Positions 699 through 35,732 of a DNA stretch of 36,197 nucleotides are shown here, piece after piece. The translations under genes and the position numbers were made by a program. The notes beneath the pieces are model-generated. The model was given only the letters and a program-made list of their open reading frames with translations. It did no database searches and was not told the origin of the DNA. The DNA lies in the NCBI GenBank assembly GCA_002781365.1, contig PETN01000100.1:1-36197 (forward strand). The letters are read 5' to 3'. Origin of the DNA: Sulfurimonas sp. CG01_land_8_20_14_3_00_36_23 (GTDB lineage Bacteria > Campylobacterota > Campylobacteria > Campylobacterales > Sulfurimonadaceae). Positions within the stretch are counted from its first letter, which is position 1. Every line of letters begins with the position of its first letter.

Positions 699-708
699 GG
701 CATGTGGA
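699..708 (+). repeat. dispersed 10-mer GGCATGTGGA, intergenic
   Basis: Exact copy between the nuclease remnant and the 3' end of rseP. It forms one arm of the imperfect hairpin at 701-720. Confidence 0.9.
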
Positions 709-720
709 AATTCCCACATG
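701..720. terminator. hairpin from motif copies, probable terminator
   Basis: CATGTGG (701-707) and CCACATG (714-720) form a perfect 7-bp stem with a 6-nt loop. It lies between the converging nuclease remnant (+) and rseP (-). No clean U-tract follows in either direction, so it may be a weak terminator or simply an inverted pair of the dispersed motif whose second copy has diverged (CCCACATGAC). Confidence 0.45.
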
Positions 721-8790: not shown

Positions 8791-10191
8791 TTAAACCCTC
8801 TCCCAAAATGTGCCTTGTGGTGTATCCATTATGCTCACTCCACATGCCAAAATCTCATCACGAAGTTTGTCTGAGCTTGCAAAATCTTTTACTTTTTTAG
8901 CTTCATCTCTTTGTCTTATAAGTGCGTCAATTTTTGCTTTTGTAGCTTCATCCAAACCAAACTGAAAATACTCAAATGGATTTTTAACACCAAAACCTAA
9001 AACTTCTTCTATGTAAGCAAGGTTTGCCATAGTCTCACGTTTAAGCTCTTTATGTTTACCTGCTGTGTCTAAAGTTTCGTTCGCACTGCTAATCATTTCA
9101 TCGATGAGCGCTAAGGCGGTGGATACATTCATGTCATCACTAAGAGCTTCTAAAAGCTTCTCTTTAAATGCTGTACTATCATTTCCACATGCCAAACCAA
9201 AGAGGCGTTTTTTGAGTCTGTAAATCTTGTCTAAGCGTTTTTTAGAAGCAGTTAAATCCTCTTCGTTGAAGTTAAAGTTACTTCTGTAGTGCGTACTCAA
9301 AAGGTAAAAGCGTAAAACCTCTCCATCGTACACTTTGAGGGCATCTTTTAAGAAAAAGCTGTTACCTAAAGATTTGCTCATTTTTTCGCCGTCTATGTTT
9401 ACAAAACCGTTATGCATCCAGTAGTTCGCCAGCGCGTGGTTTGTGCCACATCTTGTTTGTGCCGCTTCGTTTTCATGGTGAGGAAAGAGCAGGTCGGCTC
9501 CTCCACCGTGGATATCTACTGCATATTTATTACTTCCACATGCCAAATGTTTTTCAATCATCGCCGAACATTCCAGATGCCAACCTGGACGACCCGCACC
9601 AAAAGGAGAATCAAAAGTCAGACTGTTATCTTTTACACTTTTCCACATGGCAAAGTCAGCAGAGTTTTTCTTTGCAGAGGAACTCTCCACTCTGTTTTGT
9701 TTCTCATCTTCCTCTTGCACTCTTTTGGAGAGAGTGAGGTACTCGCTGTCGCTCGCAGTATCAAAATAGACATCGCCATCAGCAGTTCTATACGCATGCT
9801 TCGAGTCTATAAGTTTTTGAACAAGCTCAAACATAGCTTCAAGTGATTCGGTTGCTTTTGGCTCAATATCTGGACGGGCTACACCGATGGCCTCCATCTC
9901 TTTATGAAAAGCCTCTGTATAGAAGTCTGTAATCTCTTTTATATCTTTTTTTTGTTCCATCGCTTTTTTAATGATTTTGTCATCAATATCGGTGATGTTT
10001 CTAGCGTAGGTTACATCGAGTCCATTTGCTTTTAAAACACGAGTGAGCAAATCAAACACCAAAGCACTCTTGGCGTGCCCTAAATGCGCATCATCATAAA
10101 CAGTCGGACCACAAACATAAAGAGTGGCTTTGCCTTCTTCTTGGGGGATAAATTCTCTTTTTTCTTTTTTTACGGAGTCGTAAATAGTCAT
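8791..10191 (-). CDS. cysS: cysteinyl-tRNA synthetase
   Basis: Class I synthetase charging tRNA-Cys. The zinc ligand Cys27 is in YVCGPTVYD, the HIGH box appears as HLGH at 36-39, the second zinc site is in HLECSAM with HHENE further on, and KMSKS is at about 269-273. Length 466 is typical. First gene of cysS-DUF2164-methyltransferase, with an extended -10 promoter upstream. It carries three exact and one near copy of the dispersed 10-mer within about 815 bp, the highest density in any gene here; all exact copies read Ala-Cys-Gly. Confidence 0.97.
   Translation of the reverse strand: MTIYDSVKKEKREFIPQEEGKATLYVCGPTVYDDAHLGHAKSALVFDLLTRVLKANGLDVTYARNITDIDDKIIKKAMEQKKDIKEITDFYTEAFHKEMEAIGVARPDIEPKATESLEAMFELVQKLIDSKHAYRTADGDVYFDTASDSEYLTLSKRVQEEDEKQNRVESSSAKKNSADFAMWKSVKDNSLTFDSPFGAGRPGWHLECSAMIEKHLACGSNKYAVDIHGGGADLLFPHHENEAAQTRCGTNHALANYWMHNGFVNIDGEKMSKSLGNSFFLKDALKVYDGEVLRFYLLSTHYRSNFNFNEEDLTASKKRLDKIYRLKKRLFGLACGNDSTAFKEKLLEALSDDMNVSTALALIDEMISSANETLDTAGKHKELKRETMANLAYIEEVLGFGVKNPFEYFQFGLDEATKAKIDALIRQRDEAKKVKDFASSDKLRDEILACGVSIMDTPQGTFWERV
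8839..8848 (-). repeat. dispersed 10-mer, in cysS
   Basis: Exact copy read as Ala-Cys-Gly near the C-terminus (ILACGVS). Confidence 0.9.
9184..9193 (-). repeat. dispersed 10-mer, in cysS
   Basis: Exact copy read as Ala-Cys-Gly in GLACGND, with TT before and AAT after, matching the long consensus. Confidence 0.9.
9535..9544 (-). repeat. dispersed 10-mer, in cysS
   Basis: Exact copy read as Ala-Cys-Gly in HLACGSN. A one-mismatch copy (GCCATGTGGA, read Ala-Met-Trp-Lys) lies 100 bp away at 9642-9651. Confidence 0.9.
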
Positions 10192-10279: not shown

Positions 10280-10289
10280 GGCATGTGGA
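10280..10289 (+). repeat. dispersed 10-mer, intergenic
   Basis: Exact copy in the context GTCTTGGCATGTGGAAAT, in the gap between cysS and the decarboxylase operon. It is the last copy before a 6.15-kb motif-free stretch. Confidence 0.9.
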
Positions 10290-10342
10290 AATATCAATAG
10301 TAAAAATTTAAAATGCTCAGTAAGAATAAAAGTCTCTTGATG

Positions 10343-16439: not shown

Positions 16440-16449
16440 GGCATGTGGA
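16440..16449 (+). repeat. dispersed 10-mer, intergenic
   Basis: Exact copy in ATCTTGGCATGTGGAAAT, between the convergent 3' ends of the cyclase and ccdB genes. Its flanks match the 10280 copy over about 15 bases. Confidence 0.9.
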
Positions 16450-16458
16450 AATCTCTTT

Positions 16459-24563: not shown

Positions 24564-24573
24564 GGCATGTGGA
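24564..24573 (+). repeat. dispersed 10-mer, between murF and radC
   Basis: Exact copy in AGTTTGGCATGTGGAAAA. It fills most of the 21-bp gap at the left border of the restriction island. Confidence 0.9.
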
Positions 24574-24580
24574 AAAATAG

Positions 24581-25240: not shown

Positions 25241-28200
25241 TAAAACATAATGAAGACACAAGAGTTAAAATACCCTCTATTTTACATCTGACAAGATTAG
25301 GCTATGAATATCTTTCGTTAAGAGATGCTACTTGGGATTTAGACACAAATATTTTTACGGATGTTTTCAAAAAAAGTATCACTAAAATAAATCATGATTT
25401 GAAAGAAGATGCTATAAACCGTCTTTATGATGACATCTCTCACTTATTAGATTATGAAGATTTTGGAAAAGCATTTTATGAAAAACTTACAGAACAATCT
25501 GGTGTAAAACTCATAGACTTTGAAAACTTTCACAACAACACTTTCAATGTTGTTACAGAACTCACATATAAAAATGGCGATGATGAGTTTAGACCTGATA
25601 TTATTTTACTTATAAATGGCATGCCTTTAGTTTTTATAGAGGTTAAAAAGCCAAACAATCAAGACGGTGTATTAGCCGAGAGAAAGAGGATAAACACAAG
25701 ATTTTCAAACAAAAAATTTAGAAAGTTTGTAAATATTACGCAGTTGATGGTTTTCTCAAACAATATGGAATACGATGATGACTTATCCGAGCCGATTGAA
25801 GGCGCATTTTATGCGACACCTTCCCATACTCCGAAGTTTAACTATTTTAGAGAAGAAGAGAAGTTAAATTTAGCAAAGCTTTTAAATGATTTAGATGAAG
25901 ATACAGAAAATTTTATTTTAAAAGATAACAACTTAGAATCTATCAAGAAGCAAAATGAATTTTTAACAAACAAAGACCCAAGCACTCCGACAAATCGTTT
26001 AAGTACCTCTCTATTTTGTAAAGATAGATTAGCATTTGTTTTAAAGTATGCCATCGCTTATGTTAAAGTAAGTGGCGGTGTTGAAAAACATATCATGCGT
26101 TATCCTCAGATTTTTGCTACAAAAGCGATAGAGAAAAAACTTAGTGAGGGTATTACAAAAGGCATAATCTGGCACACTCAGGGGAGTGGTAAAACCGCAC
26201 TTGCATTTTATAATATCAAGCATCTGACAGATTATTTTCAAAAAAAATCTATCATTCCAAAATTTTACTTTATAGTTGATAGGCTCGATTTATTAACGCA
26301 AGCAAAAAAAGAGTTTATTAGTCGTGGGCTTGTTGTGCATGAAATCTCCAGTCGTGAAGCATTTGCAAAAGATATAAAAGCAACAACGGCGATTCATAAC
26401 GAAAGAGGACATCAAGAGATAACAGTTGTAAATATTCACAAGTTTAAAGATGACCCAGATGTTATTGCGGTGCAGGATTATGACATCAACATTCAAAGAG
26501 TCTATTTTTTAGATGAAGTTCACAGAAGTTACAATCCAAAGGGTAGCTTTTTAGCGAACCTCACTACCTCAGATCCACATGCCATAAAGATTGGGTTGAC
26601 TGGAACACCGCTTATTGGTGCGGATGCTTCATCAAAAGCCATTTTCGGAGATTATATACATAAGTATTATTATAATGCTTCCATAGCAGATGGATACACG
26701 CTCAGACTTATCCGTGAAGAGATACAGACAGAGTACAAGATACAACTGCAAAAAGTCCTTGAAGAGATAGAAATACTCAAAGGTACTTTAAAAAAAGAGC
26801 AGATATATGCGCATCACAGTTTTGTAGAGCCTATGCTTGATTATATTGTAAAAGATTTTGAGAAAAGTCGTTTGCTTTTTGATGAAAACTCAATAGGCGG
26901 TATGGTGATTTGTGACTCTTCAGATCAAGCTAAAATGATGTTTGAAATATTTGAGTCAAAGTATGCGCAACAAATATTTCCACATGCCAACAATGATTAT
27001 TACGATGCCGAGATGGTAGCTGAACTTATGCCAACCTATGGAGAAAAAAGAAAAGACGCTTCCAAAGTAAAAAGTGCAGCGTTAATACTTCATGACATCG
27101 GAAACAAAGAAGAGCGAAAGCAGAAGGTTGAAGATTTCAAAGACGGAAAAATCGATTTTTTATTTGTTTATAACATGCTTTTAACAGGCTTTGATTCTCC
27201 GAGGCTCAAAAAACTCTATCTCGGTAGAATCATCAGAGACCATAACCTTCTTCAAGCACTTACGAGAGTGAACCGAACCTACAAAAAGTTTAAGTACGGA
27301 TTTGTAGTCGATTTTGCAGATATAAGTAAAGAGTTTGATGATACTAATAAAGCCTATTTTGAAGAGCTTCAAGCAGAACTCGGTGATGAGATGGAACATT
27401 ACTCATCACTCTTTAAATCCCGTGAGGAGATAGAAGAGGAGATTCAAGCTATAAAAGAGCTTCTGTTTAGTTTTGATACAACGAACGCAGAGATTTTTTC
27501 ACAACAGATAAACCAAATCCAAGATGTTAAAAAAATGCAAGAGATTAAAAAAGCGTTGGGTGATGCAAAGAGTCTGTACAATCTTATAAGACTGTTTGGA
27601 CATAATGAACTACTTGAAAAGATAGATTTTGCAAAGTTAAATCTACTCTACCGTGAAGCATCAAACCACCTCAATCTATTGAACCAAAAAAGTGCACTTG
27701 AAAGCGGAGACGACAATGCAAATATTTTAAACTATGCACTTGAAGATATATTGTTTAAGTTTACAAAGATTGGGGAAGAAGAGCTTGTTCTAGCAGATAA
27801 ACTCAAAAATACTCTAAAACGAACTAGAGAAGCATTAGCAGGCAACTTTGACAAAAAAGACCCTGAGTTTATCTCACTAAAAGAGGAGCTTCAAAGACTC
27901 TTTAAAAACAAAAACTTAAACGAAGTAACACAAGACGAGATGAACAAAAATATAGCAACACTTGAAAAAATACATGAAAAGATAAAAGAAATAAATAGAG
28001 AAAATGAGCTTTTAAAACATAAATATCAAAATGATGCAAAATATGCAAGAATACATAAACGACTGATGCAAAATGACGACTTGTCTAAAATGAAGAGTGA
28101 GGTTTATGCTGCTCTTTGTGATGTAAAAAAAGAGACGGATGAGCAAGTTCTCCATAATAACTCTATTTTAGAAAATGAGGATTATTTCAATAGAGTGATG

Positions 28201-31877: not shown

Positions 31878-32353
31878 TAGATAAAACCATAAAATACTTA
31901 GGCTATTTTACAGCTTTTATCTTGAGCGTTCTAGTGCTGCTGATAGTTTATGATGCAACTGCGAGGTATCTCTTCTCTTCAGGTTCCATCGCGCTTCAGG
32001 AGTTGGAGTGGCATCTTTTTGATGTTGTTATTATGTTTGGGATTGCCTATACGCTTCGTGAAAATGCGCATGTACGTGTAGATATATTTTATGCAAACTA
32101 TGCCCCTAAAACAAAAGCGTTGATCTCTATCATCTCTACGCTCTTTTTTATACTCCCTTTCTCTTTTCTCATTATCTACATCGGAGTGGATTTTGTGAGT
32201 ATGAGTTTTGCCCAACATGAGGCATCTTCAAATCCTGGTGGCTTAGAGTATCGATACCTTGTAAAGTCACTTCTACCACTCTCCTTTCTCTTTTTAGCAC
32301 TTCAAGCAATCAAAGAAGCTAGCAGTAGCTTTGGCATGTGGAAATCATTATGA
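31874..32353 (+). CDS. TRAP transporter small permease DctQ
   Basis: 159 residues with four hydrophobic helices, the DctQ layout: IKYLGYFTAFILSVLVLLIVYD, then LEWHLFDVVIMFGIAYTLRENAHVRVDIFY, which holds the family residues. Works with DctM in sodium-driven uptake of organic acids or related anions. Its start overlaps hsdS by ATGA and its stop overlaps dctM. The binding protein DctP is not in the window. Its last residues, GMWKSL, are encoded by an exact dispersed 10-mer. Confidence 0.9.
   Translation: MIDKTIKYLGYFTAFILSVLVLLIVYDATARYLFSSGSIALQELEWHLFDVVIMFGIAYTLRENAHVRVDIFYANYAPKTKALISIISTLFFILPFSFLIIYIGVDFVSMSFAQHEASSNPGGLEYRYLVKSLLPLSFLFLALQAIKEASSSFGMWKSL
32333..32342 (+). repeat. dispersed 10-mer, at dctQ/dctM junction
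   Basis: Exact copy in GCTTTGGCATGTGGAAATC. It encodes Gly-Met-Trp-Lys at the DctQ C-terminus and also contains the GTG (32338) that could start dctM. Confidence 0.88.
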
Positions 32354-34315: not shown

Positions 34316-34390
34316 TGGATGGGGATACAGGATTCGAACCTGTGAATGGTAGCACCAAAAGCTACTGCCTTACCACTTGGCGAATCCCCA
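34316..34390 (-). tRNA. tRNA-Gln (anticodon UUG)
   Basis: 75 nt including encoded CCA. Acceptor TGGGGAT pairs with ATCCCCA; anticodon stem GTAGC/GCTAC encloses TTTTGGT, giving anticodon TTG; the T arm is ACAGG TTCGAAT CCTGT. The discriminator base is T, which is uncommon for Gln. Confidence 0.95.
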
Positions 34391-34437: not shown

Positions 34438-34510
34438 AGAAACTTTAAAAATTATTTATATTGATAGAAAAAAAGAACTTTTTTGAAAAGAAATAATTAG
34501 GAAGCTAAGA

Positions 34511-34540
34511 TTTGGCATGTGGAAATTTCCACATGCCAAA
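34511..34540. terminator. 30-bp perfect palindrome of two head-to-head motif copies
   Basis: TTTGGCATGTGGAAA is followed directly by its exact reverse complement, with no spacer. It contains both exact 10-mers (34514-34523 and 34528-34537). It lies 17 bp downstream of the Amt gene stop and folds into a 13- to 15-bp hairpin, so it probably ends the amt transcript. Its minus-strand tract after the stem is mixed (ATCTTAGC) rather than T-only, so it may be weak. Confidence 0.8.
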
Positions 34541-34556
34541 AAGATGAGCGAAAACT

Positions 34557-35732
34557 CTATATCGCTCGCTTAAATTCAGGGTAAGACTCAACCCCACATT
34601 CGTTAATATCCATACCCTCTTGTTGTGCATCATCAGTTGCTCTAAATTGCGTAATGCGATTGATAATATAGATAAGCACATAAGAGACACTAAAAGCAAA
34701 AACCCCAACAATGACAACGCCTTTGAGTTGATCCATAAAAGAGATCTCTTCTATAAAAATACCGACTGCTAAAGTTCCCCAGATACCATTTACTAAGTGC
34801 ACAGAGAGCGCTCCAACAGGGTCATCGAGTTTGAACTTATCAAAAAGAGGGACAGCAAAGACAACTAGAGCACCACCAATAGCACCGATTAAGATAGGCA
34901 GATACATATTAAACAAGTCTGGTCCCGCAGTGATTGCTACAAGTCCACCGAGTGCACCATTTAATATCATGGTAATATCAAAGAGTTTGTATCTCACATA
35001 CATCAAAATACCAGCGATGATTGCACCAGCAAGACCCGCTGTGTTTGTATTCATGATTGTTTTTGCAACACTGTTCGCATTTTCAACACTTGAGATAGAA
35101 CCAACACTACCACCATTAAAGCCAAACCAACCTATCCAAAGTAAAAAAGCACCTAAAACGACAAGAGGAATATTTGACGCTGGAATAACACGGATACTAT
35201 CTTGAACATAACGACCTTTACGTGAACCGATGATAAGAATAGCCGCTAAAAGTGCCCAGCCACCAGTAGAGTGGATAACAGTTGAACCTGCTAAATCGTG
35301 CATGTTTATATCTAAAAAAGTGCCTGCTAAAAAGTCTGCACCCCAACTCACATTTACAACTGCAGGGTAGATAAAAGCTCCCATAATAACAGCGAAAATC
35401 GCAAGCGGAATAATACGAACTCTCTCACTCACACCACCACTCATAATGTTGATAGTTTTACCAACAAATGCCATCTGAAACAGAAATGCCGCCCACATAC
35501 TCATATTGGAATTTTCCCAACTCCCAAACGCAAAACAATAACCAACAAGTAAAAATGCCAAAGACGCAACGGCATAAATCATTACGTTTATCGTAAGTAC
35601 TGACGATACATTTTTTGTGCGAACAAGCCCAGCTTCGAGCATCGCAAACCCTGGAACCATAAAAATTATAAGCACCATACAAAAGAGAGTAAAGAACGTG
35701 TCTATAATATATTTGAAATCAGCTTCTAACAT
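34557..35732 (-). CDS. amtB: ammonium transporter (Amt family)
   Basis: Trimeric inner-membrane channel for ammonium/ammonia. 391 residues with about 11 helices. Signatures: FMVPGFAMLEAGLVRTKN at the N-terminus, DLAGSTVIHSTGGWALLA with the first twin histidine, GWFGFNGGS, and SVHLVNGIWGTLAVG with the second. No glnK/PII gene accompanies it in this window. There is no signal peptide in the first 8 residues (MLEADFKY), so the first helix follows directly. GGGG lies 9-12 nt before the ATG. Confidence 0.95.
   Translation of the reverse strand: MLEADFKYIIDTFFTLFCMVLIIFMVPGFAMLEAGLVRTKNVSSVLTINVMIYAVASLAFLLVGYCFAFGSWENSNMSMWAAFLFQMAFVGKTINIMSGGVSERVRIIPLAIFAVIMGAFIYPAVVNVSWGADFLAGTFLDINMHDLAGSTVIHSTGGWALLAAILIIGSRKGRYVQDSIRVIPASNIPLVVLGAFLLWIGWFGFNGGSVGSISSVENANSVAKTIMNTNTAGLAGAIIAGILMYVRYKLFDITMILNGALGGLVAITAGPDLFNMYLPILIGAIGGALVVFAVPLFDKFKLDDPVGALSVHLVNGIWGTLAVGIFIEEISFMDQLKGVVIVGVFAFSVSYVLIYIINRITQFRATDDAQQEGMDINECGVESYPEFKRAI

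Follow-up and report, generated by a model that had tools for sequence, protein, structure and literature searches.

A 30-bp palindrome behind amtB in Sulfurimonas as an inverted pair of a putative uptake-sequence-type repeat

The palindrome at 34511–34540, behind the amtB gene of a Sulfurimonas genome, is probably an inverted pair of an uptake-sequence-type repeat, and such pairs at gene ends appear to be kept as 3′-end hairpins that carry no U tract. The broader reading is an uptake-sequence system that evolved independently in a third group, one part of Sulfurimonas within the Campylobacterota, with its own dialects. Its inverted pairs would have been recruited as U-less 3′-end hairpins, so that the dual use of Neisseria and Haemophilus would be achieved through another mechanism of termination. 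We regard this reading as evenly poised. The window analyzed, 36,197 b long, makes up the entire contig C82 in a genome of 2,427,617 b (G000). By amtB, the nearest named loci come from Sulfurimonas MAGs.

The amtB palindrome and the other copies in the window

Positions 34511–34525 read TTTGGCATGTGGAAA and abut 34526–34540, TTTCCACATGCCAAA, with a spacer of 0. This is exactly the half-site followed by its reverse complement that the original prediction placed between amtB and tRNA-Gln. As A34510 and A34541 are unpaired, the palindrome is exactly 30 bp long. The features of the window are the following:

34511–34540, no single strand (34511–34525 +, 34526–34540 −): spacer-free palindrome of two head-to-head repeat copies (sequence; RNA stem-loop prediction)
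34514–34525, +: exact motif copy, GGCATGTGGAAA (motif scan)
34526–34537, −: exact motif copy, GGCATGTGGAAA (motif scan)
34557–35732, −: amtB, ammonium transporter, stop codon 16 nt before the palindrome (PF00909, 3.7e-85)
34316–34390, −: tRNA-Gln (TTG), next gene downstream of amtB, same strand (tRNA match)
699–722, no single strand: second, imperfect inverted pair between convergent genes (327–689, +, and rseP-like 769–1821, −) (motif scan, Pfam, RNA fold)
9182–9193, −: single exact motif copy inside a gene (this and the following lines: motif scan, gene calls)
10280–10291, +: single exact motif copy, intergenic
16440–16451, +: single exact motif copy between convergent genes, 12 nt past a stop
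24564–24575, +: single exact motif copy just past a stop
26977–26988, −: single exact motif copy inside a gene
32333–32344, +: single exact motif copy at a gene 3′ end

The RNA of 34511–34540 is predicted to fold into a 13-bp stem with the loop AAUU (−23.2 kcal/mol, z −6.5). In this predicted fold a GC-rich stem-loop lies shortly past the amtB stop codon, as expected of a terminator, and the U run expected after the stem is missing, the amtB strand reading UCUUAGC there. In all likelihood the hairpin is therefore no textbook Rho-independent terminator. A search of the window against the Rfam RNA families returned the tRNA as its sole match. About 25 nt past the palindrome, at 34461–34486, an AT-rich weak hairpin with a T-rich tract (minus strand CTTTTCAAAAAAGTTCTTTTTTTC) precedes a TATGAT-like box for tRNA-Gln; amtB may truly end here, or the stretch may be promoter DNA. 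Other Sulfurimonas amtB genes carry different hairpins in place of the palindrome (loci L068, L070 and L071). At the nearest amtB locus (L066, position 4217) a hairpin AGTACCC..GGGTACT follows amtB and is itself directly followed by one motif copy, in the same place as the palindrome.

The second pair consists of an exact copy of GGCATGTGGAAA at 699–710 (+) and of GTCATGTGGGAA at 711–722 (−), which has two mismatches. Its 7-bp arms (701–707 and 714–720) enclose 6 nt, and the neighboring minus-strand gene at 769–1821 encodes an M50 protease with a PDZ domain. The weaker version with one decayed half that had been proposed behind rseP at 701–720 is thus real, and its RNA fold is far weaker than that of the amtB palindrome (z −2.2 / −0.7). 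The whole window holds 30 motif matches at up to two mismatches, against 2.6 expected, and 26 occurrences of CATGTGG against 2.3.

The repeat in the genome and in the genus

Throughout the 2.43-Mb genome there are 495 copies of GGCATGTGGAAA (247 on the forward strand, 248 on the reverse) and 0 of the reversed control; an over-represented short exact motif on both strands is one of the marks of an uptake sequence. The 10-mer GCATGTGGAA has 858 copies. We analyzed 1.83 Mb of the genome in detail, in contigs chosen partly for carrying convergent (+−) pairs. From the flanks of the copies in these contigs the consensus of the repeat is TTTGGCATGTGGAAAT. Single-mismatch variants are nearly absent at the inner motif positions; the first G and the last A tolerate more variation. 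On the 3′ side there is a T at +12, with T mildly in excess thereafter, and there are no further AT-rich blocks. Intergenic DNA, 8.5% of the sequence, contains 39% of the cores. The other 61% (405/662) lie inside genes, nearly all as single copies, divided 197/208 between the strands and with frame preferences. Genes were called with our own dicodon predictions, which agree with the open reading frames of the window that have Pfam matches. The two longest motif-free stretches are a low-GC sugar cluster and a core atp/fab operon, so that no clean depletion of the motif in foreign DNA is seen. Viral contigs gave 7 chance-like single matches to the 16-mer, one in each contig. Copy number, strand symmetry and mismatch intolerance support the view that the repeat behaves like an uptake sequence, as far as sequence statistics can tell.

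Counted as TTGGCATGTG, the repeat shows enrichment in 18 of the 135 genomes of Sulfurimonas, with 43 to 851 copies each against 0–29 in the remainder. No enrichment was found in other genera of the order, where ∼234 sampled genomes had at most 14 copies. By these counts the repeat characterizes one part of Sulfurimonas. Uptake sequences are expected to recur, as the same motif or as dialects, in related species, and besides these 18 of 135 genomes we found candidate dialects in small samples: CTTGGCATGTGC (TTGGCATGTGC-like) in genome G035 and an TAGCATGTG-like motif in G036. Both genomes likely carry motif dialects, and the 200 copies of GCATGTGGAA but only 43 of TTGGCATGTG in G036 fit this reading. 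A further Sulfurimonas (G016, C14:1-20000, locus L252) has a different dense repeat, with 12 copies of TCATTCTGGAC.. / CCAGAATGAC in 20 kb.

Genes for DNA-uptake machinery are present, both ComEC and type IV pilus or T2S-like parts. ComEC was matched at C1:67258-68025 of the genome studied here (7.6e-24), which also encodes a T2SSE-family ATPase and several prepilin-like proteins, among them the products of C1:59402, 59999, 114931 and 115839; prepilin-like genes adjoin priA-like and recG-like helicase genes. ComEC is found in 30 of 32 genomes tested, motif-bearing and motif-free, and therefore does not discriminate between them. We found no report of an uptake sequence in Sulfurimonas or the Campylobacterota in the open-access literature. 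To our knowledge, experimentally established uptake sequences are limited to the Neisseriaceae and Pasteurellaceae.

Orientation and position of motif pairs

Exact pairs with a spacer of up to 30 were counted in the whole genome, so that these counts are free of the contig-choice bias of the 1.83 Mb. There are 31 convergent (+−) pairs, 12 divergent (−+) pairs and 2 direct pairs outside the 17-bp tandem arrays. Among intergenic core pairs within 40 nt of each other in the 1.83 Mb, 63 are inverted and 9 direct, a further 8 direct ones in tandem arrays being set aside. Inside genes the corresponding numbers are 7 and 8. This near equality serves as an internal control: the spread of the motif does not itself favor inverted pairs; the preference for them arises from something at work at gene borders. 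At spacings up to 10 the favored +− order outnumbers −+ by 29 to 6, and spacers of 0–5 are the commonest. Eight spacer-free 24-mers are present in the 1.83 Mb, where independent placement predicts 0.02. Motif pairs, all intergenic, account for 13 of its 16 perfect palindromes that measure at least 24 bp. The inverted excess recurs in four other genomes (G100, G120, G121, G079).

Direct repeats also occur as tandem arrays. Outside the window, arrays with a 17-bp period lie at C13:3-97, C94:7-88 and C86:4715-4792, and genome G100 has one of ∼16 copies with an 18-bp period (C18:43139-43418). Two of the arrays stand at contig ends and may in truth be longer. An intergenic repeat of ∼100 bp with 92–98% identity, found at C30:5739-5828, C30:7593-7686 and C96:134-239, contains an inverted motif pair with a loop of 14–18 nt. 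On another contig (C62:1-6028, locus L238) repeated segments (CCATCGTCCTCCGATGGGAATGC..., GCCCAC..CCCGAAGCC...) that carry motif copies stand between small genes that by eye look toxin-antitoxin-like and KilA-N-type-like, an arrangement that resembles a gene-cassette array.

The pairs are concentrated at gene ends. When both neighbors are known, 28 of 60 intergenic pairs lie between convergent genes and 3 between divergent ones; the gene calls leave out tRNA genes, and the amtB pair therefore counts as convergent despite the intervening tRNA on the amtB strand. Single copies are found between convergent genes in 20.5% of cases (p 4.5e-4), and such regions make up 9.35% of intergenic bases. That inverted pairs should be commoner at gene ends than elsewhere had been named as a test, and the comparison of 28/60 with 9.35% of bases bears it out. 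A stop codon is found no more than 40 nt from approximately 76–85% of pairs, compared with 37% for random intergenic positions. Single copies are close to stops too (71%); stop proximity alone hence does not distinguish pairs, and part of the gene-end position is mere tolerance of that DNA.

Hairpin tails and alternative explanations

The repeat TTTGGCATGTGGAAAT would be a protein-recognized sequence of the DNA-uptake type that arose within Sulfurimonas, its single copies probably marking kin DNA for uptake. Two head-to-head copies just past a stop are predicted to give the mRNA a strong stem-loop of 12–15 bp. Selection would keep these pairs as transcript 3′ ends, which is consistent with the position and orientation bias described above. 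The hairpin may pause the polymerase, or block trimming exonucleases after Rho- or pause-assisted termination. Other gene-end hairpins of the genome, mostly tail-less, would act likewise. At 34511–34540 the hairpin would separate the amtB mRNA from the downstream tRNA-Gln.

A closer copy of the Neisseria and Haemophilus situation, in which the pairs would be canonical Rho-independent terminators made from uptake sequences, is unlikely. The uptake motifs of Neisseria and the Pasteurellaceae start with A's (Kingsford et al., 2007; PMC1852404), so that in Neisseria and Haemophilus the favored +− pair is flanked by A on its 5′ side and T on its 3′ side and makes a Rho-independent terminator (PMC1852404). 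The inverted arrangement and the tail-to-tail enrichment reported for Neisseria (PMC1852404) are seen here as well, together with a strong predicted stem. However, the extended motif of Sulfurimonas starts with TTT, the opposite polarity, and the favored +− pair therefore leaves CAAA rather than U after the stem. At least five T's in the 8 nt after the stem are found for 9 of 47 +− pairs, against a background of 31%. Such T content is slightly commoner than background among −+ pairs (15/29, p 0.024), on which account some of them could be intrinsic terminators. Mean T counts in the same 8 nt do not differ (2.52 for +− pairs, 3.16 for −+ pairs and 2.81 for non-motif hairpins). Gene ends are hairpin-rich overall (51% / 34%, vs. 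18.5% / 9% in shuffles), and T-tailed hairpins are found at only 6–7% of them (<1% in shuffles). Because the non-motif hairpins at gene ends are also at background T, the motif hairpins look like the ordinary gene-end hairpins of this genome. The dual use as Neisseria-like terminators that had been suggested thus holds for the concentration at gene ends and fails for the tail, which is CAAA with T at background.

We consider it quite unlikely that the palindrome serves at the DNA level, as a site bound by a symmetric dimer (an uptake receptor, a nucleoid or a regulatory protein), with the hairpin playing no part. Perfect dyad symmetry and the predominance of spacers of 0–5 would agree with such a site, as would the overlapping dyad DUS of Simonsiella muelleri (PMC3630211), but it would not predict an inverted bias that peaks between convergent genes and is missing in coding DNA; moreover, +− spacers vary and −+ pairs also exist. 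A mobile palindromic element of the REP/MITE type hopping between gene ends is very improbable. The 17–18-bp tandem arrays and the ∼100 bp of flank shared by a few pairs (C30, C96, C32, C49/C51) are what such an element might leave. Against it, the cores inside genes (405/662) are nearly all single copies, most pairs have no common flanking sequence beyond the motif, and a long conserved unit beyond the half-site is lacking, only a handful of copies having common flanks. Hundreds of copies of one exact core would also suit a chromosome-maintenance motif like Chi, KOPS or Ter, an idea we find hardly credible for a core whose orientation shows no strand bias in any large contig or relative to GC skew (335 vs. 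327), where a polar motif would be biased.

Relation to known systems and meaning

The Sulfurimonas repeat resembles the neisserial DUS in being an exact repeat of 10–12 bp with hundreds of copies, equal strands and likely dialects between species, in its many single copies within genes, and in inverted pairs that lie at gene ends and are most concentrated where genes converge. Dialects and inverted pairs are found in all DUS-bearing Neisseriaceae (Frye et al., 2013; PMC3630211). According to Treangen et al. (PMC2397512), inverted pairing leaves transformation in Neisseria unchanged, which agrees with the pairing serving something other than uptake. Unlike the DUS, the repeat occurs in the Campylobacterota, has an unrelated sequence (TTTGGCATGTGGAAAT vs. 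ATGCCGTCTGAA), numbers ∼860 cores instead of ∼1900 or more, and begins in its extended form with T's and lacks a T tail; uptake is putative here. The USS of the Pasteurellaceae is likewise a genome-wide repeat with +− pairs in presumed terminators, but it opens with AA(A) and carries AT-rich blocks on its 3′ side that the Sulfurimonas motif lacks. Enterobacterial REP/BIME elements are intergenic palindromes at gene 3′ ends whose U-less hairpin is thought to stabilize the upstream mRNA. The motif pairs share this location and the hairpin without a U tract, whereas their half-site is an autonomous repeat, mostly single and often in coding DNA.

Taken together, the terminator idea appears right in place and not in the Neisseria mechanism, and the uptake idea is plausible. 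If it is true, the Sulfurimonas repeat would represent a separate origin, and it becomes possible to ask what is general in DNA self-marking. The polarity of the tail acts as a natural control. In Neisseria, pairs may be kept for terminating transcription or because a T tail comes with the motif, and the two are difficult to tell apart. The Sulfurimonas motif brings the wrong tail and its pairs are nevertheless kept at gene ends, and only there, which suggests that the hairpin itself is the selected feature and that U-less 3′ ends in this group are a wider class.
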